This document shows, piece after piece, positions 10,197 to 47,889 of a stretch of DNA of 64,000 nt. How positions within the stretch are numbered: the stretch's first letter is position 1; each line of letters opens with the position of its first letter. A program made the position numbers and the translations under genes. The stretch is from Candidatus Nanohaloarchaea archaeon (GTDB lineage: Archaea; Nanohalarchaeota; Nanosalinia; Nanosalinales; Nanosalinaceae), in contig CP046106.1 in NCBI GenBank assembly GCA_013343275.1, forward strand, positions 186,001 to 250,000, read 5' to 3'. The notes below the pieces were generated by a model. That model saw only the letters and a program-made list of their open reading frames with translations. It made no database searches and had not been told where the DNA came from.

Positions 10197-11210
10197 CTAG
10201 GATGCCGGCGAGTATTTGCGGCCTCTCTTCTCTCCAGAGGCCTCTATCAGGCCGTAGTCCACCATCTTGTTCAGGTATCTTCTCAGCGTTCTGTCGTTCC
10301 TCGGATCCTCTGCCTCTGTCCGATACTTCTCGTAGAGTTCTCCAGGACTGATCTCACCTTCCTCCTTGATTATGTCGTATAGAATTCTCTGGTGGTCATG
10401 CAGTTTTTCCAGAGATACTGATTTGTTCTCCTGGACTGCGTCCGAAAAACTTTGCTCGAAAATTCTGTCGGGAATTTTCTCAAGGTCTTCTCTCTCGGCC
10501 TTCCTCGCTGCCATCCGCAAAGTCCCGATAGCTACTCTGGCGTCGCCCTGTGATTTCTCTGCCACCATCTCCAGTTGAGCTCTCGTTGCAGCTCCCGGCT
10601 TCAGTCCGTACTCTCTACGATCTGCAAGTATATCTGTAAGCTCCTTGACGGAGTAACTGCTGAAGTGAATGTCTTCACGTGTCGAGAAAGAAGACTGTAT
10701 GCGATCATCTAGCTGGCCGAAAACGTTCTCCCTGTTCGATATCATAATTATTCCAACCTTGTTAAGCCGGGAAATATCGTATAGAAAGCTTTCCTCCTTG
10801 ATCTGGTCTACCTCGTCAACTATCACAACCATAGGCCTTTTTCTCGCAGTCTCCTCCAGCTTGTCGACAAGTTCCTCCGTGGCCGTGCCTTCACGCGTAA
10901 TAAACTCTCCCATATCTGTCAGTAACTGGTAGTACGCCTCGAAACGCGACGGATTACGGAAACAGTCAATCGAACCTGATTTCAGATCTGTAGCGTGCTT
11001 ATGCAACTCTTCGACAACATAGTTCGCCATCGCAGTCTTACCGGTACCAGGAGGCCCGTGAATCAGCATATCGATCGGCTGCTCGCCCTCCAGAATAGGC
11101 CTCAAATTATCGGCAATAACCTGTCTCTCGCTGTCTCTATGCACCATTTTGTTCGGCAGATAGTCTGCGGAAAGAACACGCGCATCTTCAATTATCGAGT
11201 TATAGCTCAA
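10197..11210 (-). CDS. orc1: Orc1/Cdc6 replication initiator
   Basis: AAA+ origin-recognition and helicase-loading ATPase, 337 residues. Walker A is HGPPGTGKTA (51-60) and Walker B is VVIVDEVDQI (about 128-137). Sensor 1 is IMISN and the GDARVAIGTLR stretch is the sensor 2 region. A winged-helix DNA-binding domain fills the last 90 residues (KLHDHQRILYDIIKEEGEIS). The start is TTG at 11210; later ATGs would cut the conserved segment YLPNKMVHRD. Archaeal origins often lie beside this gene, so the 100-nt space upstream is a candidate. Confidence 0.93.
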   Translation of the reverse strand: MSYNSIIEDARVLSADYLPNKMVHRDSERQVIADNLRPILEGEQPIDMLIHGPPGTGKTAMANYVVEELHKHATDLKSGSIDCFRNPSRFEAYYQLLTDMGEFITREGTATEELVDKLEETARKRPMVVIVDEVDQIKEESFLYDISRLNKVGIIMISNRENVFGQLDDRIQSSFSTREDIHFSSYSVKELTDILADRREYGLKPGAATRAQLEMVAEKSQGDARVAIGTLRMAARKAEREDLEKIPDRIFEQSFSDAVQENKSVSLEKLHDHQRILYDIIKEEGEISPGELYEKYRTEAEDPRNDRTLRRYLNKMVDYGLIEASGEKRGRKYSPAS

Positions 11211-19227: not shown

Positions 19228-19809
19228 GTGTTTACAACAGCAGACCTAACTGAGCGGCAGGAGAAACTGAACAAGACCTTCCTTTTCATGATCAAACTTC
19301 TCGCAGCAGGAGGAATCTTCCATCTAATACTTTACATCTACCCGAACACCTACTCGCTGCAGGTGGGACTGGCCCAGCAAGTAAACTATATAACTGGTTT
19401 AATAGGAATGAACCTCCACCAGCAGGGGATATACCTGATCAGCGACTCGGCACGGTACTACATAACACAGGACTGCCTCGGATGGAAATCAATGGCCATG
19501 TTCACGGGCCTCGTCTTCGCAGGTTCAACAAAGTTCAGAAACCACCTGAAATACGTTATCTCAGGAGTAGGCCTCATCTACCTGGCAAACCTGATTAGAG
19601 TGGTCTCCACGCTCTACCTCGCGGAGAAAGGAATAATATCCTTCGGAGTAATCCACGGAGTAATGTGGAAATGGGGGCTCACAGCACTGGTCCTTGTGAT
19701 GTGGGTGGCGTGGTTCAACTTCGCAGAGATAGAGGAAGAAGCACATGTACTGGAAAGAGAACTGAGAAAGGCGACGTCGAACCTCTCAGAAAATAGAGGA
19801 GAGAAGTAG
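19228..19809 (+). CDS. Archaeosortase/exosortase family protein
   Basis: 193 residues with about five membrane helices. The catalytic triad of the exosortase/archaeosortase family is visible: C83 (TQDCLGWKSM), R124 (LANLIRVVS) and H143 (FGVIHGVMW). These enzymes cleave C-terminal sorting signals and attach surface proteins to lipid. It starts at GTG 2 nt after the DUF460 gene. A possible substrate in this window is the 973-residue protein ending at 53810, whose tail has PGIG, a hydrophobic helix and a basic end. The subtype is not assigned. Confidence 0.8.
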   Translation: MFTTADLTERQEKLNKTFLFMIKLLAAGGIFHLILYIYPNTYSLQVGLAQQVNYITGLIGMNLHQQGIYLISDSARYYITQDCLGWKSMAMFTGLVFAGSTKFRNHLKYVISGVGLIYLANLIRVVSTLYLAEKGIISFGVIHGVMWKWGLTALVLVMWVAWFNFAEIEEEAHVLERELRKATSNLSENRGEK

Positions 19810-20682
19810 AAAACCTGCGCCGAAGATATCGGTAAGCAGTAGGGCCAGCACGAAAACCGGCATGAAAGGCACGCCTTCTCTTATCTCAAACTCCTCGTCT
19901 TCAATTCCCTCTATATCTTCCTCTGTCAGGCCTACAATACGGTCGTCAAAGCCCTGTCCCGGCGCCGCCACGTCTCCAGGCTCCAGATCGCTGGTGTCGA
20001 CAGTTCTGTAAAACGCCTCGTCCTGCACTACTTCAAGGAAACGGGTAAGCAAGATCATGAAGACAAAAAGCAGGGAGAAAACCAGTGCAGGAACCTTCAA
20101 AGTAGTCATAAACACGGCCAGTACAGCTACAGCAGCTAACTCAAGGCCTATACGTTTTCTATCGTTTTTCAGGCTTTCCGCAGTCTTACTCCACACTTCA
20201 GGGTTTCTGAAGCTCTTGTAGAGGGTGAATCCCATTATGTAGACGAAGCCTGCAAGAGTGATGTTCACGAACAGGTTGATAGGATCGAGCAAGGTCGCTG
20301 TTCCTACGTAAGGAGCGCCGAAACCTAGAGCGCTCATGGCGAATGCATCTGCACCCCCCCACATCCCGTTCCAGTAGGCAGCCCAGCCCATCGCCGAGAA
20401 AACCAGGCCTACCGAAAGAGAGTAGAAAAGAGGCTCCCCTAGAGCTGCCATGAGAGATGCAATCCCGGAGTAGGAGAAAATTGCTGTGAAGCCATTCGTG
20501 GCTATGAAGTCTGTCACCGCGTTCAGCTGCAGAGGGCGGGAGGCTATGAAGTGAAGGCCTATACCTCCCAGGACTGCTGATGCACAGAAGATATCGGGTA
20601 CATCGGTGGTATCCAGGTCGAAAAGTGAGGCTACGAAAAGCATTGAGAAAGTCAGTGCGTGTGACAGAACTGTGAATACCAT
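19786..20682 (-). CDS. Archaeal prepilin peptidase (A24 family)
   Basis: 298 residues, polytopic. The two catalytic aspartates of A24 aspartic peptidases are in FDLDTTDVPD (about D22) and MWGGADAFAMSALGFG (D112, the GxGD-like motif as GGAD). Helices surround both. A soluble acidic stretch (about 210-270) precedes a last helix. It cleaves class III signal peptides of pilins and archaellins. It converges with the archaeosortase gene (24-nt overlap) and is 0.6 kb from the DGR target, which carries such a signal peptide. Confidence 0.82.
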   Translation of the reverse strand: MVFTVLSHALTFSMLFVASLFDLDTTDVPDIFCASAVLGGIGLHFIASRPLQLNAVTDFIATNGFTAIFSYSGIASLMAALGEPLFYSLSVGLVFSAMGWAAYWNGMWGGADAFAMSALGFGAPYVGTATLLDPINLFVNITLAGFVYIMGFTLYKSFRNPEVWSKTAESLKNDRKRIGLELAAVAVLAVFMTTLKVPALVFSLLFVFMILLTRFLEVVQDEAFYRTVDTSDLEPGDVAAPGQGFDDRIVGLTEEDIEGIEDEEFEIREGVPFMPVFVLALLLTDIFGAGFLLLSSIF

Positions 20683-21270: not shown

Positions 21271-22542
21271 ATGTTTTGTAATGTGATTGTATGTATGAAC
21301 TCGGGCAGTCTTTACTCTATGATGACAACAGGTTTCTCCACACACACACACACGGATAGTAAGAAATTAATTTCTGGCTCAAGTAAAGGCCAGTCAGCGA
21401 TCGAGTACTTGACCACTTATGGCTGGATGCTCTTGGTTGTTGCAATTGTTGGAGGCAGTATTTTTACTACAGTTCAGGGTCAGGCACAGCTTGAGACCTC
21501 AGGATTTGAGAATAGCGGTGTTTCACTCGTTGATTCTGGTATGACTGGCAGTTTCTACGCAATGCAGCTACGAAACACGGAAGCTAACCAGATAGAAGTA
21601 CAGAAAATAACTTTGTCAGATAGCAACACCGAAGTTGTTAAAAGGCCTGAAGAAACTATTCCAGCAGCTGGAGAATCCACTTTTCAGTTAATCGGTTTAG
21701 CAGAGTCAAACGCTCAAAACACTGTGAACGTAAAAATAACTTATGATTCAGATGGCCTCAACAACCTGGTAGCAGAAGGTACAATCACAGGCAATCTAGA
21801 ACTCAACACAGAAAAAGCAGAGCCCGGGAACGGACAATGGGAGTTCGTAGACGTCTCCAAAGTCCCGCAGAGAACAGTCGATACCTCTGGGATGTCTGAT
21901 TTCTATATTATGAAGTATGAGGCCTCAGCAAAGTCAAATGTTTCCAATCCTCCTACTTCTGCTACTCCTGTCTCAGTTAAAGGCAATATTCCGTGGGCAC
22001 AGATCAGTCAGAACGAGGCTATACAGGTCTGCCGAGATGCTGGCTACAGTCTTCCGTCTAATAAGCAGTGGCAGGCAGCTACAATGGCAGAGATCGGCAA
22101 CGCGAGTACGCAACCGTTAGGTAATACGAACAGTGGGAGCGATGCTAATGGTAACTCCGGCACTCCCGATCCTACCCAGAATGGTCGTGTCTTGACCGGT
22201 ACTGGCCCAAGTTCCTGGGCGAACCCGATCGGAGTCTACGACCTGAACGGTAATGTCTGGGAATGGACTTCCACAGTTGTTGACCAATCGCATCCGATGC
22301 ATAAAGGAGGGAGCGATGGAAACGTGGCTTCCTGGAACAACAATGGTTATCCTGAGACTCTGGGTAGTGCTAATTCCAGTCTAGGCAGTGATTATTACTG
22401 GTCTTCATCGAACGATAACCGTGCCGTTCGGCGTGGTGGCGACTGGAACGGTGGCGCGGGGGTCGGAGTGTTCTCCATGTCCCTGGGCAACGCTCCGTCG
22501 GACTCGGGCACGGACTTCGGGTTCCGGTGTTCTCTTTCCTGA
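21271..22542 (+). CDS. DGR target: class III signal (pilin-like) protein with FGE/C-type-lectin domain
   Basis: 423 residues. KGQSAIEYLTTYGWMLLVV (residues 39-57) is an archaeal class III signal peptide with cleavage expected before Q41, as in type IV pilins. A beta-rich region follows to about 185. Then comes a formylglycine-generating-enzyme/C-type-lectin-like domain (MKYEAS, YSLPSNKQWQAA, GVYDLNGNVWEWTS, GFRCSLS). The last 37 residues or so (384-420) are the variable repeat. Alternative in-frame ATGs lie at 21295, 21319 and 21322; the last gives a 23-residue leader and may be closer to the true start. It is a predicted surface adhesin whose ligand-binding face is diversified. Confidence 0.88.
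   Translation: MFCNVIVCMNSGSLYSMMTTGFSTHTHTDSKKLISGSSKGQSAIEYLTTYGWMLLVVAIVGGSIFTTVQGQAQLETSGFENSGVSLVDSGMTGSFYAMQLRNTEANQIEVQKITLSDSNTEVVKRPEETIPAAGESTFQLIGLAESNAQNTVNVKITYDSDGLNNLVAEGTITGNLELNTEKAEPGNGQWEFVDVSKVPQRTVDTSGMSDFYIMKYEASAKSNVSNPPTSATPVSVKGNIPWAQISQNEAIQVCRDAGYSLPSNKQWQAATMAEIGNASTQPLGNTNSGSDANGNSGTPDPTQNGRVLTGTGPSSWANPIGVYDLNGNVWEWTSTVVDQSHPMHKGGSDGNVASWNNNGYPETLGSANSSLGSDYYWSSSNDNRAVRRGGDWNGGAGVGVFSMSLGNAPSDSGTDFGFRCSLS
22419..22530 (+). repeat. DGR variable repeat (VR)
   Basis: These 112 bases at the 3' end of the target gene align without gaps to the template repeat at 23373-23484 (offset 954). There are 17 mismatches, every one at a position where the template has A: 14 A-to-G, 2 A-to-T and 1 A-to-C. 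The invariant end GGGTTCCGGTGT would be the initiation-of-mutagenic-homology side. Confidence 0.95.
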
Positions 22543-22642
22543 TTGCTGGAGGCTGGTTTGCTATGAGAATTAATTGTTTTCCGGCGTTTGGAGAAGTTAA
22601 TCTGGCAAAATCTCTTATTCAGGAAGCTGAGGCCGATCTCTA

Positions 22643-23020
22643 ATGGGAGAGATGGATTTCACTGGTTTGCAGGCGTATGAGGAGGTTTCTCCAGCAGTTG
22701 TGAAAGGTCTGAAATTATTGAGAGATCTGGATGATTACGATACATACTGGGATTTTATTTTGAAGGGTTTGCGGCGTGACCTGGCTGAGTCCCTGCCCCT
22801 GCTCGCTGACGGGTATAACCGGTATCACTATGATGACAAGGCGGAGGCTTATCGGAAGGCTCGGAGCAAGATGTCGAGGTGTCAGTCCTGTTTCCTGATT
22901 TTGAAGGATGTCGGTGTTCTCAACAGTAAAGATGTTTCATCGGTCTGTGAGGGTTTGGAAGGTGGCATCGGACGCCTTAATGGTTTGATCAGTCGTATGG
23001 AGGATGATTCCGGTGCGTGA
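22643..23020 (+). CDS. Avd-like four-helix-bundle protein (first copy)
   Basis: 125 residues, all helical. The C-terminal half (KARSKMSRCQSCFLIL, VLNSKDVSSVCEGLEGGIG, RLNGLI) has the pattern of the S23/four-helix-bundle family, which contains the DGR accessory protein Avd. Avd forms a basic pentamer that binds the reverse transcriptase and template RNA. It lies 100 nt after the target gene and overlaps the second Avd-like gene. An in-frame ATG 9 nt later is also possible. Having two such genes in one DGR is unusual; the call rests on pattern and position. Confidence 0.65.
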   Translation: MGEMDFTGLQAYEEVSPAVVKGLKLLRDLDDYDTYWDFILKGLRRDLAESLPLLADGYNRYHYDDKAEAYRKARSKMSRCQSCFLILKDVGVLNSKDVSSVCEGLEGGIGRLNGLISRMEDDSGA

Positions 23021-23345
23021 TTTGAAGCTGTTTCAGAAAAGCTATGATTTTTATGAAGAAGTTTATCCAACTTTGAAGAATTTTCCCCAATCGGAGCGTT
23101 TTGTCATGGTGCAGAAAATCCAGGATTCTTTCCTTGATTTTATCTCTCATATTATTTCAGCTCGAAAAGCCAGTAACACTCTTCACTACTTGAGGAAGGC
23201 GGATAGAGAGCTTGAGAAGACGAAGATTTTCTTCCGTCTCTCCCGCGACCTTGGTTTTATTTCGGCTGGCCAGCACGAAAATATTTCTGAGGACTTGGTT
23301 GAACTAGGTAAGATGCTTGGAGGCTGGATAGACAGTGAGAAATGA
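23004..23345 (+). CDS. avd: Avd, DGR accessory protein (second copy)
   Basis: 113 residues. LKLFQKSYDFYEEVYPTLKN, FPQSERFVMVQKIQDSFLDF, a RKADRELEKTKIFFRLSRDL helix and the ending VELGKMLGGWIDSEK fit Avd of DGRs, including the common GGW tail. It should help the reverse transcriptase make mutagenised cDNA. The start may be ATG 23004 or GTG 23013; GGAGG at 22999-23003 is better spaced for the GTG. It lies directly before the template repeat, the standard DGR order. Confidence 0.8.
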   Translation: MIPVRDLKLFQKSYDFYEEVYPTLKNFPQSERFVMVQKIQDSFLDFISHIISARKASNTLHYLRKADRELEKTKIFFRLSRDLGFISAGQHENISEDLVELGKMLGGWIDSEK

Positions 23346-23372
23346 TATTAGGGCCGGTACTGTTTTCGGAGC

Positions 23373-23484
23373 CCGTGCCGTTCAACGTGGTGGCAACTGG
23401 AACAATGGCGCAAGAGTCGGAGTGTTCTCCATGAACCTGAACAACGCTCCGTCGAACTCGAACACGAACATCGGGTTCCGGTGT
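23373..23484 (+). repeat. DGR template repeat (TR)
   Basis: The 112-bp template for mutagenic retrohoming contains 27 adenines, mostly as AAC codons in the frame matching the target. 17 of the 27 are changed in the VR. It begins 28 nt after the Avd stop (TGA 23343-23345) and lies about 200 nt before the reverse transcriptase. It should be transcribed as part of a structured RNA and not translated. Confidence 0.95.
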
Positions 23485-23683
23485 CCTCCCGTCTTTTTCA
23501 GGCGAGAACCTGGTCATCCAAAGGATGCCGGGGCAAAGCCGATCATGTGGAGGGAGAACTTCGGTGCCGGCCTGCCCAACCGACGAAAAGAGCGGAGGCG
23601 AAAAATTCTCTAAAAAAGCGGATGACAGCCAGTAAACACGGCGTTGAAAGCTGAAATCCGCCACATCTCTTCTTTTCAGAAAA
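23485..23683 (+). ncRNA. TR-RT spacer, structured part of the DGR template RNA
   Basis: These 199 nt without a real gene follow the TR; together with the TR they make up the 338-nt gap 23346-23683. A strong stem-loop sits just before the RT: GCGGAT (23618-23623) pairs with ATCCGC (23656-23661), with nested CAGC (23626-23629) / GCTG (23650-23653). CAGG/CCTG around 23499-23512 forms another. In studied DGRs the RNA downstream of TR is needed to prime cDNA synthesis, so this part is the likely functional spacer. Confidence 0.6.
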
Positions 23684-24679
23684 ATGGTTGACAGTTTTTC
23701 AGGAAGTTTTGAGGAGATAGCAGGTTTTCAACCTCTCTACAAAGGTTATAGAGAAGCCAGGAAAGGAAAGCGTTACAGTGGAGAAGTCCTAAGTTTCTCC
23801 AAGGATTTAGATAAGAATCTTCACGAACTCTCCAACAGCCTTTTCGCTGGTAGTTACAGGTCTAAGGGTTTCAAGAAGTTTAAGCTGTTTGATCCGAAGG
23901 AAAGAGAGATTTCTGCTCCTTATTTTCGTGATCGTATCGTCCACCGCTCTCTCCACCGCTCTCTGGAGCCTTTCTTTGACAGGAAATTTATTGAGGATTC
24001 TTTTGCGTGTAGAAAAGGTAAAGGCACTCACGCTGGTGTTGATAAAGCACAGGAGTTTATGCGAAAACAGGATGCGGATTACTTTCTGAAATGTGATGTT
24101 AAAGGATACTTTGACAGCGTTGACCACAGTATTTTGCTGGATATGCTGAAAAGGCAGATCAGGGACGAGAAAATAATCGAATTGATACAGGCTATCTTGT
24201 CAGTTTCAGGCAGTAAAGGTATTCCGATCGGCACTCTGTACAGCCAGTTGTTCGCCAACATCTATCTTAACAGGTTCGATAATTTTGTGAAACAAGGCCT
24301 TCAGGAGGATTACTATGTGCGGTACATGGATGATTTTGTGTTTTTCAGTGATTCAAAGCAGAGACTGCACGAACTTAGAGAGGCCTGTAAAGGATACTTG
24401 GCTGATGAGTTGGATCTTGAGATCCCTTACAGCAAAACTACTTTGGAACCGGTGAACAAAGGTTTGACTTTTCTCGGGTACAGGATTTTTCCTCAGCACA
24501 GAAAATTGAGGAAGAGGAACAAGAAGAAATTCAGGCAACGACTGGAAAACCAGAAAAGGGCCTTGGAAAAAGGTGAAATTGATTTCTCCGAGTTGAAGGA
24601 TTCGATTGATTCATGGAGAGGTCATGCCAACCATGCTGATACAGAAAATTTGAGGGAGGAGGTTATTGGTGTCCTGTAA
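23684..24679 (+). CDS. DGR reverse transcriptase
   Basis: 331 residues. The RT palm motifs are clear: CDVKGYFDSVDHSILL (catalytic D138), KGIPIGTLYSQLFANIYLN with the DGR-type IGxxxSQ motif (182-188), VRYMDDFVFF (YMDD, 214-217) and LTFLGYRIF. A basic thumb follows (RKLRKRNKKKFRQRLENQKR). There is no maturase or endonuclease domain, which argues against a group II intron. It copies the TR RNA with errors at adenines and sends the cDNA to the VR. Codon use is more AT-rich than in neighbouring genes. Confidence 0.95.
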   Translation: MVDSFSGSFEEIAGFQPLYKGYREARKGKRYSGEVLSFSKDLDKNLHELSNSLFAGSYRSKGFKKFKLFDPKEREISAPYFRDRIVHRSLHRSLEPFFDRKFIEDSFACRKGKGTHAGVDKAQEFMRKQDADYFLKCDVKGYFDSVDHSILLDMLKRQIRDEKIIELIQAILSVSGSKGIPIGTLYSQLFANIYLNRFDNFVKQGLQEDYYVRYMDDFVFFSDSKQRLHELREACKGYLADELDLEIPYSKTTLEPVNKGLTFLGYRIFPQHRKLRKRNKKKFRQRLENQKRALEKGEIDFSELKDSIDSWRGHANHADTENLREEVIGVL

Positions 24680-37580: not shown

Positions 37581-40391
37581 ATGTCTGCAGGCAGAAATCT
37601 AGCTAAGTCACTTGCCCTGATTTCAACCCTTCTAGTTACAGTCTCTCTTGCCGCTTCTGCATCAGCTTGGCAGATAAACCTGCTTGGAACTCCAAGCAGC
37701 TACCAGCAAATCTCGCCCTACGGAGGGACAGTTCAGTATATCGAGATAGTGGATAGAGATACTGGCACACCTATCACCAAAAGCATTCTAGAAGACAGCG
37801 GCGGAAGAGCAGAATGGATTTACAAGGAGAACGGAACCTTTCAGGCTGAAGGCGATCTCAACTACCTCAAAGATGGAATCTGGTACGTGAGGCATACAGT
37901 AGGTAATAAATCCGGTAGTTTCAGGTTTGAAGTACAGCAAGATAATCTAGATCCTGAAGCCAACAAGACAAAGGCCATTACTGTAACAAATACTTCTGTA
38001 GAAATACTAACGGACATGTCGGATCCTTATCTTCCAGGGAGAGAGGACGCAAGGATAGAAGTAAACGTAACGAATAATACGAACGGAGAATATCTCTCCG
38101 GAGCAACCGTGGAAATCAAGATTACCAATACTACTTACATCAGCACACAGAACCTTAACGAGGATACCGACAATAAGCGATATGAGCTTTACGCCATGGA
38201 TATACCGGATGCAGTACAGCAGCAGTATGCTCTACATGTAATAGCTAATGTGGGAGGACAGACATCAGTTACAACACAGTTCATCAGCACAATGGACTAC
38301 CTGAACACATCAGTGGACAAGGTGCAGGCAGGAGAGGCCTGTGGCCAGCAGAGCATGCCTACAAGCTGTGAGCCTGGGGCAACTCTTGATCTAGGCCTCA
38401 ACGTAACATCGGCTTACGCTGAGAATGTAACTCTTCAAGTTCTGAAGGATAGTGTTGAAGGAGGCATGACTCAGGTGCAGGAGTTGGAGCTGACTGAAAA
38501 CCAGGAGACAGGCCTTTATGAAGGACAGATAACCTATCCGCAGATCGATACCAGCAGTTATGAGGATAAACTGGTTCTGAAGTTTATCTCGGAGAATAAC
38601 TACAGTCAGCATGTTTCCTACTACAATATCAGCAAGGCCAGTTTCGAGGTCTCAGAGGATATGAATCAGAAAGCATATCAGGGATCGCAGTATGGTATCA
38701 AGTTCAGCTTGATGACTCCTTACACAGGGAATCCTTACAATGCAAGCAAGTTTGCCTCTGCCGATCTAAGCTTCAAGTATCCTAATGGCACCACTTACAG
38801 GACGCTCAGTAAATCCAACCTCAGTTACGATAGCGAGACCGGCTGGGTGACAGGAGACGTACTTATTGAGCAGGGAGCGCCTAACGGTAGCTACACGCTG
38901 GATGCTCAGGTCTCAAATATGTACGGCACGACGAAGTCGTTTACTCACAGCTTCGAGGTACTGACTACCTCCCAGATCTTTTCAGCGACCGACCAGATAA
39001 CTGTCGATCTGCAGAAGCAGAAAAATTACACGAAGAACTTCACTATAACGAATAAACTCTCAAGCAGCATAACAGTGAATCCTGAAGTAAACGGAGATAT
39101 ACAGGGTATAGCAAACGTAAATTCAGGCCAGAACATCGATATAGCAGCAGGGAATAGCACGAACGTAACTGTAGAGTTCGATATCGATGAAGTACAGGAC
39201 TACTCTGGAGAAATAGTTCTTCACGATACTGCCTCCGATTACAATGAGACAGTGGATGTCGAGCTTAATGCTCCAGACTGCGGTACGAGGAACGCTACTA
39301 TCTGTGTAAGCAGAGACGGATGGATTAACGTGACACGTGTAGGAAGAGGCCAGTCAAGCGAGACATTTACACTGAACTACCTTGGACCGGAAGAAGATGT
39401 AGCAGTTGAAATAGGGAAGAGAGGCGAAGCTGCCAGCCATATTTCGATATCTAACACCAGTTTCAATCTGTCCGACTCACGAGAGATAACATTGAACTAC
39501 ACAATCAACGAACCGGTAAACGTTACAGGAGAAATATTCGTCAACTCAACCTACGACATCACAATACCTACTGAGGTCGTAGGCGACTTCGCACAGCCAC
39601 AGGTAAATATGAGTGTAGTGAAAGACACTGTGGACTTAGGAGTAATACAGGCCCTGCAGACAGACTTCAAGGTAGAGGTGCAGAACAATGGAACAACAGC
39701 AATAGACTACTTCGAATCAACAGACCAAGTAACTATAGAAGACTATAACTCAATCGATCCATCCTCTACAGGCAATATCACCCTTAATATTTCCAGAGAG
39801 GATTACGGACTTACTGATCAGGCTATCACATTAACGGCCTACAGAGCAAACCCTGCAAACACTCAGGAAGAGCTATCCGGATCCTCAGATGCCTTCCAGC
39901 TGGTAGCAAGGTTTATGCCTGAAACTGAGGCCGCAGCCCAGAACATAACATCATGGGCAGACGAGCTAATGGGTAAGACTTTCAGTTCATCGATGATCAG
40001 CCGACTAGAACAGGCGAAGACCAACGCAACGATTATGAGGGACGAATTTAGCAAAGGGAACGACAAGAAGGCCTTCAGAATATACCAGACGACGATGGAC
40101 AACCTCGCAAGCATGGAGGAGGAAATAAACAGCAATACAAATACGGGAGGCCAGAACGGTGGAACTGGCCAAGATGATGCAACTGATGATCAGCAGGGCC
40201 AGAGCGGTGACTCTTCTGATAGTCCTACAGGCAATCCGTCTGGAGATGCTCAGAAGAAAAGCGGCGGTGCTGGAATACTACCTATTATTCTTGTGGTATT
40301 GATACTGGTTGTAGCAGGATTTATCTTCTACACCAGTTACATCCCCGAACCCGGAGACCCACTCTACGAATACCTGGGTGAACAACAGTAA
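37581..40391 (+). CDS. Large surface protein with signal peptide and C-terminal anchor
   Basis: 936 residues. The N-terminus LAKSLALISTLLVTVSLAAS is a Sec signal peptide (cleavage likely near residue 30). The ectodomain of about 830 residues is beta-rich and rich in Thr, Ser and Asn-X-Ser/Thr sites, consistent with tandem Ig/CARDB-like domains and N-glycosylation. A Gly/Asp/Gln-rich linker (about 850-890) leads to a membrane helix GILPIILVVLILVVAGFIFY and a short inner tail. The function is likely cell-envelope structure or adhesion. The TAATG overlap with the next gene suggests they act together. Confidence 0.7.
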   Translation: MSAGRNLAKSLALISTLLVTVSLAASASAWQINLLGTPSSYQQISPYGGTVQYIEIVDRDTGTPITKSILEDSGGRAEWIYKENGTFQAEGDLNYLKDGIWYVRHTVGNKSGSFRFEVQQDNLDPEANKTKAITVTNTSVEILTDMSDPYLPGREDARIEVNVTNNTNGEYLSGATVEIKITNTTYISTQNLNEDTDNKRYELYAMDIPDAVQQQYALHVIANVGGQTSVTTQFISTMDYLNTSVDKVQAGEACGQQSMPTSCEPGATLDLGLNVTSAYAENVTLQVLKDSVEGGMTQVQELELTENQETGLYEGQITYPQIDTSSYEDKLVLKFISENNYSQHVSYYNISKASFEVSEDMNQKAYQGSQYGIKFSLMTPYTGNPYNASKFASADLSFKYPNGTTYRTLSKSNLSYDSETGWVTGDVLIEQGAPNGSYTLDAQVSNMYGTTKSFTHSFEVLTTSQIFSATDQITVDLQKQKNYTKNFTITNKLSSSITVNPEVNGDIQGIANVNSGQNIDIAAGNSTNVTVEFDIDEVQDYSGEIVLHDTASDYNETVDVELNAPDCGTRNATICVSRDGWINVTRVGRGQSSETFTLNYLGPEEDVAVEIGKRGEAASHISISNTSFNLSDSREITLNYTINEPVNVTGEIFVNSTYDITIPTEVVGDFAQPQVNMSVVKDTVDLGVIQALQTDFKVEVQNNGTTAIDYFESTDQVTIEDYNSIDPSSTGNITLNISREDYGLTDQAITLTAYRANPANTQEELSGSSDAFQLVARFMPETEAAAQNITSWADELMGKTFSSSMISRLEQAKTNATIMRDEFSKGNDKKAFRIYQTTMDNLASMEEEINSNTNTGGQNGGTGQDDATDDQQGQSGDSSDSPTGNPSGDAQKKSGGAGILPIILVVLILVVAGFIFYTSYIPEPGDPLYEYLGEQQ

Positions 40392-40855
40392 TGGTACTAG
40401 GATTCCTGAGTTCGCTTCCTCAGCAATACAGCACAGTAATACTTCTGGTGCTGCTGCTTGCAGCATTCATTGCTGCTTTCAAACTTATGGAAATGGTATT
40501 CGAGACAATAATGGTGTCGGTGCTCTCAGCAGGAGCATACATAGCATTCACCAGACTGGTATACAACTCAATGCCAGGCCTCAATAATATCCTTCTATTT
40601 GCATTTGCAGGAGCATCACTCTACCTAGGATACACCTTACTGGCATCGGCCTACGGCCTCGCAGCAACTGTAATCAGTATACCTTACAGGATAATCAAGT
40701 TTGCCTTCAAAGGCCTGAGGAAAGCTTTCAGCTCTCTAATGAGCCAGGCAGAGGAGAAGAAAAAGTCGAGGAAACAGACAGAAAACGAGAAAGAAGTAAA
40801 GGAAGTAGTGCTTGACAAGATGAAAGGGGATAAGGACAAAGAGGAAGAAAACTAG
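40391..40855 (+). CDS. Membrane protein with charged cytoplasmic tail
   Basis: 154 residues. Three to four hydrophobic helices (TVILLVLLLAAFIAAFKLME, AGAYIAFTRLVYNS, ILLFAFAGASLYLGYTLL) are followed by a highly charged Lys/Glu tail from about residue 115. Its ATG overlaps the stop of the surface protein by one base, a strong sign of coupled expression. It could anchor or assemble that protein. Family not recognised. Confidence 0.6.
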   Translation: MVLGFLSSLPQQYSTVILLVLLLAAFIAAFKLMEMVFETIMVSVLSAGAYIAFTRLVYNSMPGLNNILLFAFAGASLYLGYTLLASAYGLAATVISIPYRIIKFAFKGLRKAFSSLMSQAEEKKKSRKQTENEKEVKEVVLDKMKGDKDKEEEN

Positions 40856-41526
40856 TTCTCCTCAGCCTTCAAAGTCAGGCTTCCTGCATTCAACTCATTT
40901 ATCTTGCCTTCGAAAACAAATCTCTCCTGCTCAGGGTAGACAGTTATATTGCCTGAGAAAGAGTCAATTTTCAGGTTGCTGTTGTTAATACTCGTGGAAC
41001 TTGAAGCAGTCTCCACAACACCGGAAACTCCATCAAAACTGACTTTAACTCTTCTGGCACCGGTGATCGAGATCCTGCTTGTATCAAGCTCTTTCTCGAA
41101 ACTGAAACTTCTGGAAGAGTTCACGCCGCTGCTGATGTAACCAGAGGCCCTACCCTTGACATCTGTGCTGTTGGTATCGAAAACCATCTTTCCGTTGAAC
41201 CCTGTCAATGTAACTTCGGAATCAGAACTTATCGAGAACCTTTCCGCGCTGTAGGAGGTCATGTTCTTCGCAGTGAAGGAGGCCTCTGAGAACTTCAGGG
41301 TTTCCTCTCCCTCAGCAGTTATGTTAATACTTACAGATTTTGTAGGCTCAGGCCTGTTCGAAAGCATGGAGAAAATATCTATAGACTTGGGAAATATCCC
41401 TTCAAGAATGTTCTTCTGCTGGGAGTTAATATTCTGTACATCTGCTTGATTAAGCGAGCCTCCGTTGATCCCTACTGCAAGGGCCATTATAGAGGCAAAT
41501 ACCGCGGCTAGAATTCTGGCTTCCAT
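40852..41526 (-). CDS. Secreted beta-rich hypothetical protein
   Basis: 224 residues from the ATG at 41526. MEARILAAVFASIMALAVGI is a signal peptide or N-terminal anchor. The mature part is a repeating beta pattern rich in Ser, Thr and Asn (SEVTLTGFNGKMVFDTNSTD, ISITGARRVKVSFDGVSG), perhaps a beta solenoid or lipid-carrier-like fold. The start is favoured by a TATA-like TTTTATA on the minus strand about 28 nt upstream; the frame runs 36 codons further but without support. Confidence 0.6.
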   Translation of the reverse strand: MEARILAAVFASIMALAVGINGGSLNQADVQNINSQQKNILEGIFPKSIDIFSMLSNRPEPTKSVSINITAEGEETLKFSEASFTAKNMTSYSAERFSISSDSEVTLTGFNGKMVFDTNSTDVKGRASGYISSGVNSSRSFSFEKELDTSRISITGARRVKVSFDGVSGVVETASSSTSINNSNLKIDSFSGNITVYPEQERFVFEGKINELNAGSLTLKAEEN

Positions 41527-41532
41527 AAAAGG

Positions 41533-41560
41533 AATGTAAAGTCTTGCCTCGATATAAAAC
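41533..41560. promoter_or_regulatory. Interlocked divergent promoters
   Basis: Only 37 bp separate the minus-strand ATG (41526) from the plus-strand GTG (41564). GATATAAAAC at 41551-41560 is correctly spaced for the minus gene. AATGTAAAGT at 41533-41542 is a weaker box for the plus gene. Confidence 0.4.
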
Positions 41561-41563
41561 CAT

Positions 41564-42130
41564 GTGAAAGCAGTAATCCTAGTCGAACCAGAAATACCGG
41601 AGAACACCGGCTCAATCGCCCGCCTAGCCCACAACTACGACTACCAGATACGGATAGTCAATCCGGAATTCAACCTGGAAAAAGCCCGGAAGACAGCGAA
41701 AAACGGCCAGGAAAAACTGAGAAACGCAAAAATATACGATAATGTAGAGGAAGCAGTTGACGGACTGGACTTCGTTGTCGGAACCAAGCCAGGTAAAGGA
41801 GTGGGCCTGAAAGAGTTCACGCCGAGAGACAATACTTCTATCATGATCGGCCGGGAGAGTTCGGGCCTTTCCAATGAGGAACTTGAAATGTGTGATGCAG
41901 TTGTCCATATCGAGACCGAAGACTACCGGTCAATCAACCAGAGTCACGCAACGGCCATAGTAATGCACAGTTTTGCTGAAACGGAAGGAGAAGGCCTTGA
42001 TCTGGACAAGAAAGAATATATTTCCAGTATAGTTGATTCAGAGGTTTTAGAAAAACTTATTTTCAGGGCCAATCCGTCGGAAAGTGAGGCCAATCGCCTG
42101 ATCGGTGATCTCAAGGATATGTCTGACTGA
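41564..42130 (+). CDS. TrmJ-like SpoU (SPOUT) RNA methyltransferase
   Basis: 188 residues from a GTG. MKAVILVEPEIPENTGSIAR is the N-terminal SPOUT motif 1. IMIGRESSGLSNEELEMCD and the SINQSHATAIVMHSF stretch are motifs 2 and 3 of the TrmH/TrmJ family with the knot-forming SAM site. TrmJ methylates the 2'-O of nucleotide 32 in tRNA; that target is inferred from family only. The archaeal C-terminal extension is short here. Confidence 0.82.
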   Translation: MKAVILVEPEIPENTGSIARLAHNYDYQIRIVNPEFNLEKARKTAKNGQEKLRNAKIYDNVEEAVDGLDFVVGTKPGKGVGLKEFTPRDNTSIMIGRESSGLSNEELEMCDAVVHIETEDYRSINQSHATAIVMHSFAETEGEGLDLDKKEYISSIVDSEVLEKLIFRANPSESEANRLIGDLKDMSD

Positions 42131-42181
42131 GTTCGAACCATTGGTTTCAGAGTTAAAAAGATGGTAAATTAATTCTGTTTC

Positions 42182-43459
42182 ATGCCTCTAGGAATACTTG
42201 CAGCAGGCGGAAACGACTTACTAACTCAGATATACCAAATCCTGATGATAATATCCTTCCTGATATTCCCTGCCCTGATAATCTTCGGACCGAGACTTAT
42301 GGTCTGGCAGGTAGACAGGAAGATGAAAGATGTACTTTTCGACCTCGAGGCCTACAAGGAATCTACAGAGGCCATGTTCCTCGACAAGCTTACGTCCGAT
42401 CCAAACCCCGGACTTAAGGACAAGATGAACTCTCTGAAGAACTTCCAGATGTCCGCACCAACAAATCTGGACCCGGCAGGAATGGTTCAGAGACTTGAAC
42501 ACGTACTTGACACATCAGAGAGCAAGTTCAGAAGATTCGTAGAGAACCAGGCAGATACAGAAGACGAAGAAGAACTGGCAGACCTGACAATGGCCTTCAA
42601 GGGAGTAATGGGTACCAACCAGATCTACAAGGTAATGAACCACTTCAGACAGCTTATCAAGAAAACACAGAACTTTCAGATGGTAGGTCTCGTCAACATG
42701 ATGATGCCTATCTACAAGGAGATCGCAGAAGCTCAGAAAGAAGCAACACGGGCCTTCGTCAACCAGGCACCGACCGGCGACGGAATCGGCCCGCTTGTCG
42801 CAGCTAAGCTCATAGAATCAGACGAAGAACCGGAAGAAGTAGCAGAAGACATCATCAAGTCAGAGGAAGAAATTGACGGCAACAAGGTCCACGTAGTCAA
42901 AAGCAGAGGCCCAGGAGCCCGCCTGGGTAAATACGGCGACGCAATTGACACACTCGCCGAAGAAAACGATCTGGAAGCCATCATTACAGTTGATGCAGCC
43001 GGAAAGTTCGAGGGAGAAGACACTGGAGCAGTCTACGAAGGCGTAGGCGTCATGATGGGAGGCCCCGGCGTAGAGAAATCGAAGATTGAGGAAGCAGCAA
43101 CTGACCACGACGTACCGCTTGAAGGAGTAGTAATCAAACAGTCGCCGCCAGAAGCCTCCAAGCCTATGAAGAAAGAGATCTACGAGGCCTACCACGAAGC
43201 AGTCGACAAAGTAAACGAAATAGTCGGCGAATACGACGGTGAAGTAGCAGTAGTAGGAGTAGGAAACACCTGCGGAGTAGGCAACACTCGCTCACAGGTA
43301 GCTGGAGTCCATAACAGGCTCAGGAAGTTCTGGAAAGAGTACGAAGAAAAGGAAGAGGAAGAAGTCAGCTACCAGGGCATGATGGGAATCCTGCCAGGAG
43401 GAGACCAGGCCCAGCTAGAAGAAGTCAAATCCAGCATCCTCTGGAAACTACCAAGATAA
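42182..43459 (+). CDS. DUF1512 membrane-anchored protein
   Basis: 425 residues. One N-terminal membrane segment (IYQILMIISFLIFPALIIFG) is followed by GPRLMVWQVDRKMKDVLFDL and a large cytoplasmic domain with DGIGPLVAAKLI, VGVGNTCGVGNTRSQV and GMMGILPGGDQAQ. This is the archaeal DUF1512 family of unknown function, conserved in many euryarchaea. The glycine-rich motifs could bind nucleotide, but this is unproven. Confidence 0.85.
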   Translation: MPLGILAAGGNDLLTQIYQILMIISFLIFPALIIFGPRLMVWQVDRKMKDVLFDLEAYKESTEAMFLDKLTSDPNPGLKDKMNSLKNFQMSAPTNLDPAGMVQRLEHVLDTSESKFRRFVENQADTEDEEELADLTMAFKGVMGTNQIYKVMNHFRQLIKKTQNFQMVGLVNMMMPIYKEIAEAQKEATRAFVNQAPTGDGIGPLVAAKLIESDEEPEEVAEDIIKSEEEIDGNKVHVVKSRGPGARLGKYGDAIDTLAEENDLEAIITVDAAGKFEGEDTGAVYEGVGVMMGGPGVEKSKIEEAATDHDVPLEGVVIKQSPPEASKPMKKEIYEAYHEAVDKVNEIVGEYDGEVAVVGVGNTCGVGNTRSQVAGVHNRLRKFWKEYEEKEEEEVSYQGMMGILPGGDQAQLEEVKSSILWKLPR

Positions 43460-43538
43460 GGCCTCTCCTCACTTCTCATTTTTCATTTCTTCTCTTACTC
43501 TTCACAGCCATTATTTTTTATACCACTCCAGCCAATCA

Positions 43539-46067
43539 ATGTGTATGTATAAGAAGCTGCTACTAGCCCTACTGTTCTTTACATTCTTCCTGACTCAAGC
43601 TAACGCTGTTAGCTGGGACTGGACTCCCGCCACATCAGATCCGGCAGAAGGAGATGACTATGAAAACGGAGTTGAGAACTTTGAATATGGGGACACGGTT
43701 AGAAATGCGTTTAGGGGCTCGATAGGTAAGGAGTTTGTTCTCTCATGTAATGATGGTGTTGGATATTCAGGTAGTTGCCCTGCTAAGGATTTGACTCTAA
43801 ATATTTGCGGTAAATCGATAAATCTTAATCACAAAGGTACTACTGAGGGCAATCCCGGTGAACATGTGTGGGGGATGTCAACCCATAGGGTATATGGTAG
43901 TGAAAATTACGGAGGAAATATCCCTTGTTATCTAGGATCTCATAGTATTACCATTACAAATGATGGCTCGCCAGTAGGTATTCCAGATGACGAGGACGAC
44001 TTCAATGTAGTGCCGGAAGACATGCCGCCTAATAGAGGGAAATACCTTATCATGGCTATGGACCAGGCTGGCTCCACTGCAGAGGGATCTTCTCTTGACA
44101 ATATTCATGGCTTCTTCCTCTCAAATGATCCAAGCTGGAAGAGCTTCAGTCTTTCTAAGACTGATGTTGTAGCAGCTGAGATGGATGCAGGGTGTCCTGA
44201 CATGCTGAAAGTACAGTCAAAAGCTGTAGGCACTGTAATACCTATGGAGGATGGCTTCAAGATGAGGAGAGCTGTTAAAATGGATACGATAAACTATCAC
44301 ACGTCTTGGACTTGCACAGATGCGCAGATGGATGCATGGGAATTACTTGATTCTCCTCTAAATAAGAACCTCGGCAGAAAGTTTGGAGTAAAGGAAAGGT
44401 TGTATCCCGGCAGTATTTCACCTGTCTGGGACCGTAACTCTGAAGGATACTACCCTGATGGAGAAATAATCAAGGCCAAGACTACATCTGGACAGGGGCC
44501 TTTCTGGTTTATCTGCAGAGGAAGTATGGATGGCCAGAGAGTAAATGTAGACGGTCAAACCTACCGGTGCGATGTCAAAGGTAACGGTGTTGACTGGAGA
44601 GGAAATGAGCCAAAGACATGGATTATACCAGATGATGGGCCAACCTGTCAGTCACCGGTAGTAGGGCTTAAACCTGATGGAACAAAGGCAGTATTTTGGG
44701 ATGTTAACGAAGATGCTGCACCTACCGATGCACGTACCGGCTGCAACTACACGAATATCGATACCACTATAGAGACAGGTCAGCCCGATCTCTTCCTGTG
44801 TAGCAAGTCAGATGGCCCTAGAGAAACCTCTGCAACCGGTGGAGACACTTTGACAACCGGTGAAGAAAACTACTGCCAGTTTAATATGGACTCAACAGGA
44901 AGCTTATCTCTGGGAGACTACCACAATGGGAGCGCTCTTGCGGTAAGATACTTCGTTCCTAAGGAAGCAATACCTGTAGGAGAAGAAGGTTCGGAATATG
45001 CAACTACCTCAGGGTTCAAGAATACAAGATACGATCACATACACCGTGCTGAGCTAGATGCAATACCCTGCAACTATGAGGACTATAACTACTATCCTTG
45101 CAGAACAGCTCACAACCAGAGCAAATACCAAGGAATTAACGTTTCAACAGGAACAGCCTACAACAACTCATTTACCAACTTGGACGAAGACGCAGTAAGA
45201 AACATGTGGAAAGTAAGCAACGCAACAGGCCAGTACACATCAGATATTGATGGAATAGATAGTTCCCGACTGAACCAGATAGACGTTGGTAGAAACAACT
45301 CCGAAGTATTCAATGGAGGATTCTACCCTAAATGCTTAGGAGGCCAGCAGTGGACATATACTCCTACTCAAGAAACAGTTTCGGGATGGGAGTGTTCCGG
45401 TGCGCTAGATTTCAAAATACCAGTTTACTCCTTTGATACCAGCCAGTTCTATGGAGAAACTACAACTGGTTTCTGGATTAAGCCATATGTTTTCAGAGAA
45501 GTTACTGCAGACCCTCAATTTACAAGTTACCGACAGGCAAGGTTAGATGAAGATAAATCTGCTGCGACTCTTGAGCAGATTAGATCGGTTTGCTGGGAGG
45601 GAACTGCCTCTGAGAAGCCAAGTGAGTTTAATTCCAGTAACTCCGGCGACTGGTTTGCTAAAGAAGTAACTGGAATAGGTACCAGTCCAAGCGTGCCTGT
45701 TCCTGTAGTAGGTAACTTCAGTGCTTCTTCAAGCTCTGTTGGAGACTATACCTGCAAGTTTGAGTTTATCAACTCTAATGGTAACCCTGTTAGAGTTCAG
45801 GGTAACTTGGTAGCTATCTCTCATGAGGCTGCTGCCAAACAGCACCGTTCTCTGGCCATCCTTACGGGAGAGTACTCTACATGGATTAACCCGGACTGGT
45901 TCGCTGAATCAACTATCTGTGGCGGGAGTTGCAGTCTGCTGATAGAGAAAGAGGACCTGAACGGTACAGTACCTCAGTCACAGGTTAGAAGACTAACCAG
46001 TCAGTGGAAAGATAATCTGGGATACAGCTACAGCAGCTTTACTCCAAACGGATACCTAGCACAATAA
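43539..46067 (+). CDS. Large cysteine-containing secreted surface protein
   Basis: 842 residues. KKLLLALLFFTFFLTQANAV is a Sec signal peptide. The mature protein is acidic and has many Cys (for example CNDGVGYSGSC, SWTCTDAQ, CGGSCSLLI), so disulfides are likely. Trp/Gly/Asn-rich patterns dominate. It has no C-terminal membrane helix, so it may be released or held by partners. It shares style with the two giant genes at 47.9-53.8 kb, suggesting a paralogous surface set. I recognise no catalytic motif. AGGCCT sites are absent from this gene. Confidence 0.65.
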   Translation: MCMYKKLLLALLFFTFFLTQANAVSWDWTPATSDPAEGDDYENGVENFEYGDTVRNAFRGSIGKEFVLSCNDGVGYSGSCPAKDLTLNICGKSINLNHKGTTEGNPGEHVWGMSTHRVYGSENYGGNIPCYLGSHSITITNDGSPVGIPDDEDDFNVVPEDMPPNRGKYLIMAMDQAGSTAEGSSLDNIHGFFLSNDPSWKSFSLSKTDVVAAEMDAGCPDMLKVQSKAVGTVIPMEDGFKMRRAVKMDTINYHTSWTCTDAQMDAWELLDSPLNKNLGRKFGVKERLYPGSISPVWDRNSEGYYPDGEIIKAKTTSGQGPFWFICRGSMDGQRVNVDGQTYRCDVKGNGVDWRGNEPKTWIIPDDGPTCQSPVVGLKPDGTKAVFWDVNEDAAPTDARTGCNYTNIDTTIETGQPDLFLCSKSDGPRETSATGGDTLTTGEENYCQFNMDSTGSLSLGDYHNGSALAVRYFVPKEAIPVGEEGSEYATTSGFKNTRYDHIHRAELDAIPCNYEDYNYYPCRTAHNQSKYQGINVSTGTAYNNSFTNLDEDAVRNMWKVSNATGQYTSDIDGIDSSRLNQIDVGRNNSEVFNGGFYPKCLGGQQWTYTPTQETVSGWECSGALDFKIPVYSFDTSQFYGETTTGFWIKPYVFREVTADPQFTSYRQARLDEDKSAATLEQIRSVCWEGTASEKPSEFNSSNSGDWFAKEVTGIGTSPSVPVPVVGNFSASSSSVGDYTCKFEFINSNGNPVRVQGNLVAISHEAAAKQHRSLAILTGEYSTWINPDWFAESTICGGSCSLLIEKEDLNGTVPQSQVRRLTSQWKDNLGYSYSSFTPNGYLAQ

Positions 46068-46071
46068 AGAA

Positions 46072-47766
46072 CTATGCGCCGGCCAGTGTTTGCTGGCCCA
46101 TGTCTCCTTCTATTTCTTCTCCCTCCAGTGTTGCGTCGATTTCTTCCGCGCTCATCGAGTAGGAAGGATTGTCTCGGAGGAACTGGTTGAAATCATCGTA
46201 ATGGCCTTGTTCATCCTGCCATACATCTTCGACAACAGATTCGTCTTCTACAACTGCGTACTGTGGGTTCCCGGTGTCTCCGTAGATTATGTGGTTGGTG
46301 TCCTTGTCTTTTAGCAGTTCGTTCATCACTTTAGCTTGGTTATGTAGTTCTTGGAAGTCAGCGTCATTTTGATTGTAGGTTCTTAGTTTTTCCGTGAAGT
46401 CTTGGAGGTACTCTGTTGTTGGGGCAACTTTTTCTGCTCGAGCCATGGAGGCTTTATTACCCTCTACTTCGGCCGTGATAGGGGAGCTTGCTATATTCTT
46501 GACTAAAGACGATGCTTTTCTTTTGTTTGACTCAAAATTTGAGTTGTATTGGTTGTTACTGTGTCCTTCCCATCCAAACCGTAGTGGGTGCCAGAACTGC
46601 TGGTAGCCATCGTTTCCTGGTTCTAAGTACCCTGAGTTCTCTACTAATGGATGCATCTGAGGGTCTTCTGACGTGGCTGTTACTGGTCCCTTTATGGTCT
46701 CCATTATCCGGAGTTCGTCGGTTCCATCGGCGTTTTTTCCGTAGATTAGGCCATTGCCGTGTCCGCCGTCTAACTGGAATTCCCATGCATGTAGTTCCAG
46801 GTCTCTGTTATTCTTCTGTTCAACTGCCTGTTCCAGAACGGGGGCGTAGACATTGTTCTCGCTGCTTATTGGGCCTTCGTTGGTCATTGTGCGTTGCCAG
46901 TTGAAGTAGTAGCTGTGTATCCAGTCGAGTGCTTCTTCTACTGTTTCTGCATTTGAGAACTTTTCGGCGTTGAAGTGGCCGAAGCTCTCTCCCCACTCTC
47001 CGTTTGGATAGACAAAGCCGTAACCCTGTTTTGCTTGCTCTATCTGTGGATTGCCTGTATCTGTTCCTATGCTTTGTATGAACTGACTGGTTTCTGATGA
47101 CGGGTCTGTCTGTGGGCTCGGTGCTAGTTCTTCGTAGTCGTTGTCGTGGTACCATTCGAGTGCGGCGAGATCGACTCCTAGTTTGTCGAATCCTAGGGCC
47201 TCGTGACTGCTGTAGGTGTCGAGTGTTGGATCTGTGGTGATGAATCCGCCTTTTTCCTGCAAGTAGTTTTCCTCGTCGCTTTTCTGCTGTATTGTGTTCC
47301 TCAGTTCTTCATTTCTCTCTGGTACTACATCCAGTTTGTAGTTTCCTGGTGTAGGTTTGGAGGCCTGTGCTGTGTCTTCTGCTGTCGCTCCGTTTCTACT
47401 TGCTGTTGCCTTGAATTCCTGTTGGCCCTTCTTCATTTGGCCTGGCTGTACTGTTAAACTGTTTTCCTGCCACTGTTCTGACTCTCTGTTAATCTGTACT
47501 TTACCGTTGCTTACAGTTACTTGAGTGGGTTGGCCGCTGCTCTGAACTGAGAATTGGGCCTGGTAGTCCTCAATACTCTGAGAATCTGTCCAGATTGAAG
47601 GCAGTTGAGAAGGTTGGGCCTCTGTAGAAATACTTACAGAAATATCTTGGCTAGGGTTGTTATCGTTACTGTTGTTACTTTCATCTCCACCTGTAACTGT
47701 GTTGCACCCTGCAAGGCCTGTTAAGGTTGCAGCGCCGGCGGCCTTCATGAAGTCTCGTCGTTTCAA
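46072..47766 (-). CDS. TAT-exported lipoprotein, function unknown
   Basis: 564 residues from a TTG. MKRRDFMKAAGAATLTGLAG then C21 combines a twin-arginine signal with a lipobox, so the protein should be exported folded and lipid-anchored. A Ser/Asn/Asp linker follows. The large folded domain holds LHAWEFQLDGGHGNGLIYGK and FGWEGHSNNQYN. HAW recalls transglutaminase-like folds, but no matching Cys is visible. It sits inside the surface-protein block on the opposite strand, only 4 nt from its convergent neighbour. Confidence 0.65.
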   Translation of the reverse strand: MKRRDFMKAAGAATLTGLAGCNTVTGGDESNNSNDNNPSQDISVSISTEAQPSQLPSIWTDSQSIEDYQAQFSVQSSGQPTQVTVSNGKVQINRESEQWQENSLTVQPGQMKKGQQEFKATASRNGATAEDTAQASKPTPGNYKLDVVPERNEELRNTIQQKSDEENYLQEKGGFITTDPTLDTYSSHEALGFDKLGVDLAALEWYHDNDYEELAPSPQTDPSSETSQFIQSIGTDTGNPQIEQAKQGYGFVYPNGEWGESFGHFNAEKFSNAETVEEALDWIHSYYFNWQRTMTNEGPISSENNVYAPVLEQAVEQKNNRDLELHAWEFQLDGGHGNGLIYGKNADGTDELRIMETIKGPVTATSEDPQMHPLVENSGYLEPGNDGYQQFWHPLRFGWEGHSNNQYNSNFESNKRKASSLVKNIASSPITAEVEGNKASMARAEKVAPTTEYLQDFTEKLRTYNQNDADFQELHNQAKVMNELLKDKDTNHIIYGDTGNPQYAVVEDESVVEDVWQDEQGHYDDFNQFLRDNPSYSMSAEEIDATLEGEEIEGDMGQQTLAGA

Positions 47767-47783
47767 AGACAGAACCCTCGTTG

Positions 47784-47794
47784 TTACTAAGTAA
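47784..47794 (-). promoter_or_regulatory. Palindrome overlapping the TATA position of the TAT lipoprotein gene
   Basis: TTACTAAGTAA is a perfect 5-bp inverted repeat with one central base, 18-28 nt upstream of the TTG start. This is where TBP should bind, so it may be an operator. Nothing else supports this. Confidence 0.25.
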
Positions 47795-47889
47795 TAACGT
47801 CATGCTCGTTTATATATCTTTTCTACAATGGAGGTGCCGACCTATACTCTTTGAGAGGTTTTTTATTCACGGCCTCACCTTTAGAACTT

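Follow-up and report, generated by a model that had tools for sequence, protein, structure and literature searches.

A chromosomal nanohaloarchaeal diversity-generating retroelement that likely acts on the lectin end of a type IV pilin fusion

Diversity-generating retroelements (DGRs) have been described in Bordetella phage BPP-1, whose cassette runs from a target gene with a variable repeat (mtd-VR) through an accessory gene (avd) and a template repeat (TR) to a reverse transcriptase (RT) gene (brt), and in archaea, including reduced DPANN genomes that sometimes carry extra remote targets (PMC4372165, PMC8144416). The targets of these archaeal DGRs mostly have no recognisable transmembrane or conserved domains; in a global survey, targets of archaeal clade 5 usually lacked a recognisable anchoring domain, and the presence of unrecognised domains was suggested as a question (PMC8144416). 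Here, we analyzed a 64,000-nucleotide stretch (the window) of a Candidatus Nanohaloarchaea archaeon (GCA_013343275.1, contig CP046106.1, positions 186,001 to 250,000), in which an earlier interpretation made from the letters alone (the sequence-only reading) had placed a complete DGR at positions 21271 to 24679. The locus is a complete DGR, with nearly every testable component supporting the call, and each element named in that reading was found on the plus strand at the same coordinates. The best explanation, which we consider likely, is a chromosomal nanohaloarchaeal DGR whose hypermutation is directed at the lectin end of a type IV pilin. The novelty ascribed to the locus had been overstated, since earlier work had described DGRs in archaea (PMC4372165, PMC8144416); the window holds a variant with two Avds and a pilin-lectin target, and the N-terminal pilin domain and an (AC)7 tract in the target gene are features that the sequence-only reading did not mention.

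The window cassette shares with the BPP-1 system its gene order, adenine-directed differences between the repeats, an accessory variability determinant (Avd), the RT family (8ub7), and a C-terminal VR within an FGE-type lectin, while it differs in being a chromosomal archaeal locus with two Avd genes, a target fused to a pilin rather than a phage tail protein, and no hairpin found after the VR. All five parts (target with VR, avd1, avd2, TR, and RT) are present, and the open reading frames of the RT, both avd genes, and the target are intact. The 111-nt alignment of the VR (22420 to 22530) with the TR (23374 to 23484) contained 17 differences, all of which fell among the 27 adenines of the TR (hypergeometric p = 1.9e-13), comprising 14 A>G, 2 A>T, and 1 A>C changes. 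The dominance of A>G fits the preference for misincorporating cytosine that the BPP-1 enzyme showed in E. coli (PMC12875486). Moreover, the TR is rich in AAC/AAT (AAY) codon positions, giving a computed potential of ~10^13.7 protein variants, and by computation only one of its codons could mutate into a stop. Across the entire genome of 915,886 bp, the repeat pattern was present at two places only, the VR and the TR, indicating a single target in this genome.

The repeats also contain a candidate initiation of mutagenic homing (IMH) site (22518 to 22531, plus strand), formed by the shared 3' end of the VR and closing in T where the TR has C. This difference at 22531 sits just beyond the 111-nt core, directly after GGGTTCCGGTGT, and separates all three VRs from both TRs known from two genera (the window genus and that of G010, a genome of another genus in the same family with a related cassette), as an IMH/IMH* pair would. 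Between the TR and the RT lies a spacer (23485 to 23683, plus strand) that is conserved block-wise between the window genus and G010 and may be a conserved non-coding RNA region; the TR plus spacer folds somewhat better than shuffled sequences (z-score of -2.5).

The RT (331 aa; 23684 to 24679, plus strand) matched RVT_1 alone in Pfam, by which no maturase domain was detected, and it carries the motifs IGTLYSQ and YMDD, in agreement with the YMDD and IGxxxSQ motifs and the missing maturase domain noted earlier. Its best PDB match was the BPP-1 DGR RT (8ub7; 193 bits, E 1.1e-55); the highest-scoring group II RT reached 89 bits. Phylogenetic placement, which the sequence-only reading had proposed as a check, put the enzyme among DGR RTs and not with those of group II introns or retrons, in trees whose only non-DGR outgroup was L006. 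In a quick tree, the position of the window RT within the DGR RTs was not resolved; only careful trees joined it to the RTs of G127, a genome from another DPANN phylum, and there the RTs of G127 and G398 (same genus as G127) formed one group with the window RT at moderate support (82/87 and 91/81). The RT lineage of the G127-type two-avd cassettes is thus probably the sister of the window RT lineage. The window RT fell outside the main archaeal DGR RT group, and beyond the archaeal cassettes, RTs of viral contigs were among the nearest by path length. Single-sequence RT scans of viral and genome contigs returned no matches, and an alignment query was needed.

Both genes that had been read as Avd-like proved to be so, avd2 by sequence and avd1 mainly by predicted fold. 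The avd2 product (23004 to 23345, plus strand) scored 100.6 bits against NF033474 DivGenRetAVD (cut-off 80) and also exceeded the Pfam cut-off for PF22296 bAvd. In avd1 (22643 to 23020, plus strand), the matches to TIGR02436 and PF05635 were both weak; the model of its product (predicted local distance difference test [pLDDT] score of 85) resembles the S23/Avd four-helix bundle, including BPP-1 Avd (4dwl), and the gene is homologous to its equivalent in the other two-avd cassettes (G010 and G127). By analogy with BPP-1, RT and Avds would act here as they do in the phage system. Taken together, the adenine-only differences between TR and VR (17 of 17), the NF033474-type Avd, and the BPP-1 RT as the best solved relative bear out the claim of a complete DGR.

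The target (423 aa; 21271 to 22542, plus strand) carries a putative class III signal together with a type IV pilin domain composed of the KGQSAIEYLTTYGWMLLVVAIVGG helix and a beta domain (21385 to 21819, plus strand) and an FGE-sulfatase/C-type lectin domain with the C-terminal VR (21919 to 22530, plus strand; PF03781, E 2.8e-15). The signal motif SKGQSAIEYLTTYGWMLLVV was recognised by eye; PF04021 did not score on the window target and did score on the target of G433, a genome of another DPANN family. Residues 39 to ~181 are 45% identical over 146 aa (E 5e-39) to a resident stand-alone pilin (156 aa; G000:C1:620369-620839), which is encoded directly after a T2SSE-T2SSF-T2SSF operon (PilB/PilC-type genes), and the hydrophobic assembly helices of the two proteins are near-identical. 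Pilin-like copies similar to the target N terminus were present in 13 of the 20 genomes compared. Moreover, the target model, predicted from three-sequence alignments only, has a long helix at its N terminus together with a beta domain, and its top fold match was the Pyrobaculum type IV pilin 8fk7 (probability 1.00, E 1.4e-3), obtained from the usable pilin half alone. Both this pilin (of P. calidifontis) and the resident one share with the target the N-terminal helix plus beta domain, to which the target adds a hypervariable C-terminal lectin of ~240 residues. At the other end, the PF03781 match extends to residue 420 of 423, consistent with the earlier description of a C-type-lectin-like target ending in a VR, and the best solved relative of the lectin half is the FGE-type DGR variable protein TaqVP of Thermus aquaticus (5vf4), which has the same FGE-subtype C-type lectin and C-terminal VR and differs in being a single-domain prophage protein without a pilin domain. 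Judged by its sequence, the target joins a type IV pilin to a C-type lectin of the FGE type. The anchor identified here is a type IV pilin with homology to one of the same cell, and Pfam does not score it.

The related cassette of G010 comprises the same five parts at a different locus, together with a remote second target with its own VR. The two G010 VRs differ from their own TR at 16 and 20 positions, of which 15 and 18, respectively, are adenines, with outcomes differing between the VRs. The window and G010 TRs have diverged at 11 positions, and at the 8 of these without adenine, every VR matches the TR of its own genome, indicating that TR-to-VR copying outlasted the split between the genera. 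Copying of this kind could also come from ordinary gene conversion, which, however, fails to explain the adenine-directed changes. Thus, the description of a working system stands in the evolutionary sense, given adenine-directed changes in three VRs and VRs that track the TR of their own genus; from these, we infer rather than observe present-day activity. At fourfold-degenerate sites, avd1 and avd2 were ~67% identical between the genera (window 22643 to 23345 versus L004:412-1115 of G010), compared with 45% for the RT, 35% for the target, and 35% for ftsY, and the avd-TR region was the best-conserved part of the cassette. This high identity of the avd genes may reflect either recent exchange or recombination or a constraint at the RNA level; the idea that the entire cassette passed recently from one genus to the other was considered and is unsupported for the RT and the target when compared with ftsY. 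Behind the remote G010 target (L064:9163-10413) lies an incomplete copy of the first part of avd1 (~10540 to 10600), which suggests that this target arose by segmental duplication of the cassette; several hairpins occur after the VR of this target. In addition, the sequence just past the G010 RT (L004:2496-3152) may encode a toxin-antitoxin pair, its members resembling RelE and ribbon-helix-helix proteins by eye.

A further feature shared with G010 is the (AC)7 tract of the target gene (21340 to 21353, plus strand), located downstream of the start codons and ahead of the putative class III signal. Such a tract is expected 0.01 times per window, and it was the sole dinucleotide tract of at least 5 units in 212 kb sampled of the window genome. 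The G010 target has (AC)6 at the same place, again the sole such tract in 178 kb of that genome, while the remote second G010 target carries none. By computation, seven units bring four ATG starts into frame and six units bring none, so that the tract may be a contingency (phase-variation) tract that switches the target gene on and off, as judged from one sequence per species.

Pilin-lectin targets also occurred in other DPANN DGRs. G127 has two full DGRs in the order target-avd1-avd2-TR-RT, and G398 has partial two-avd DGRs with targets of a like kind. These cassettes share with that of the window the order of parts, both Avd types (E 3e-15 and 2e-22), and an FGE-type lectin on a pilin; they differ in the pilin type, which in G127 is a Pilin_N-like domain (under the Pfam cut-off) at the start of the target. 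G433 (L286:1620-4717) has an independent DGR, the target of which combines a curated Class III signal with an Lcl_C lectin, and its RT was placed elsewhere in the tree, near RTs of candidate phyla radiation (CPR) DGRs (96/89). Thus, pilin anchoring occurs on at least two RT lineages, and three different pilin types are used among DPANN DGR targets. Targets of other DPANN DGRs (L268 to L270) were without pilin ends, indicating that pilin anchoring is not universal, and a scan of loci L265 to L267 found no TR/VR pair. According to a secondary source, a 2017 survey of CPR/DPANN DGRs by Paul et al. noted that some DUF1566 targets contain putative pilin structures. No description of the two-Avd pilin-lectin arrangement emerged from the literature searched, which did not extend to that survey.

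The setting of the cassette is chromosomal, as had been proposed. An HTH-like (helix-turn-helix) gene lies to its left and L18Ae-prefoldin-FtsY-SRP54 to its right, the housekeeping flanks are collinear with those of G001, a genome of the same genus without the cassette, and no viral genes were found between them. Between the same neighbours, G001 carries a 474-aa Laminin-G lectin-type gene (L065:7520-8944), so that the slot is occupied by a lectin-type gene in both species; LamG proteins of nanohaloarchaea have been proposed to be host-binding. Of the 28 genomes sampled from the phylum, only 2 yielded a DGR RT.

In the mechanism that we propose, the TR RNA would be bound via its spacer by the RT and the Avd proteins and reverse-transcribed with errors at adenines, and the mutagenised cDNA, held in place by the 3' end common to both repeats (IMH), would supplant the VR of the target gene. 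A prepilin peptidase would then process the target, which carries the putative class III signal, and the protein would be built into the cell's pilus or alongside it; a clonal population would thereby display lectins of differing specificity. Their likely use would be the recognition of changing surface glycans or S-layers (surface layers) of haloarchaeal hosts. Nanohaloarchaea have been described as obligate associates of such hosts, and members of the group, including a species of the same genus, have already been co-cultured with them (PMC10266531). The source archaeon is probably tiny and host-dependent, and the cassette suggests that the cell hypermutates the grip by which its host is held. 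If so, a DPANN DGR would gain a concrete role, namely variable host attachment by an obligate ectosymbiont. A broader proposal, which we advance tentatively and rate at somewhat below even chances, is that DPANN archaea repeatedly wired hypermutation to pili, with a distinct two-Avd lineage in at least two phyla and an independent one elsewhere that diversify lectin domains joined to differing type IV pilins, an AC contingency gene in nanohaloarchaea, and a hypermutable host-recognition pilus in an ectosymbiont.

Several observations weigh against the pilin-diversifying DGR. The evidence consists of genomes, with one sequence per species; Pfam gave no score on the pilin end of the target; the full-length target model was poor (pLDDT of 40); and the absence of a DGR from G001 indicates that the system is dispensable. 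Moreover, a hairpin downstream of the VR, a BPP-1 feature reported as typical of DGRs, had no counterpart in the window, where no similarly placed arm of at least 6 nt was found; since loss of this hairpin in BPP-1 impairs repair without abolishing it (PMC12875486), we take it as non-essential. Lastly, assembly of a pilin that bears a lectin of ~240 residues would have to accommodate considerable bulk. This bulk, which could hinder filament formation, leads to an unlikely alternative, in which the DGR is real and its target is a membrane-anchored surface lectin whose pilin-like N terminus is a mere signal anchor that never enters a pilus. The resident stand-alone pilin could build the filament alone, and cellular DGR targets are mostly membrane-anchored (PMC8144416). 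However, the homology to pilins extends over both the helix and the beta domain, the assembly helix is near-identical to that of the operon pilin, and three pilin types in DPANN targets exceed what a generic anchor would need. Somewhat less probable still is an intact-looking DGR that is currently silent and diversified its VR in the past, for which the single sequence per species and the absence of a DGR RT from most genomes of the phylum leave room; open frames in the RT, both avd genes, and the target, VRs that follow their own diverged TR, and an avd-TR region conserved best between genera argue for continued function.

Two further explanations concern the identity of the element itself. 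We regard it as highly improbable that the cassette belongs to a prophage or provirus whose receptor-binding protein would be the lectin: viral-contig RTs are indeed among the nearest outside the archaeal cassettes, but the housekeeping neighbours are collinear with G001 without viral genes between them, and the pilin half of the target is homologous to the cell's own pilin. Synteny and gene content thus ruled against this origin. It is more improbable yet that the RT comes from a group II intron or retron and merely lies beside unrelated repeats. The top NCBIfam RT model was group_II_RT_mat, but its 161 bits are well short of the cut-off of 300, and the absence of a maturase domain, the IGxxxSQ motif, the higher score against the BPP-1 RT (193 versus 89 bits), the adenine-only mismatches, and the accompanying Avd led us to reject this identity on scores and motifs.

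Other genes of the window were also observed. Beside the cassette, the gene at 19786 to 20682 (minus strand) encodes a membrane protein in which prepilin-peptidase-like motifs were seen by eye; family models (Pfam and NCBIfam) gave no match to it, and it is kept in 19 of 20 related genomes. An exosortase/archaeosortase-family gene lies at 19228 to 19809 (plus strand), likewise beside the cassette. Farther along, positions 37581 to 53810 encode a series of large proteins, 564 to 1013 aa in length, that are almost without Pfam matches, apart from one weak match to MG2.

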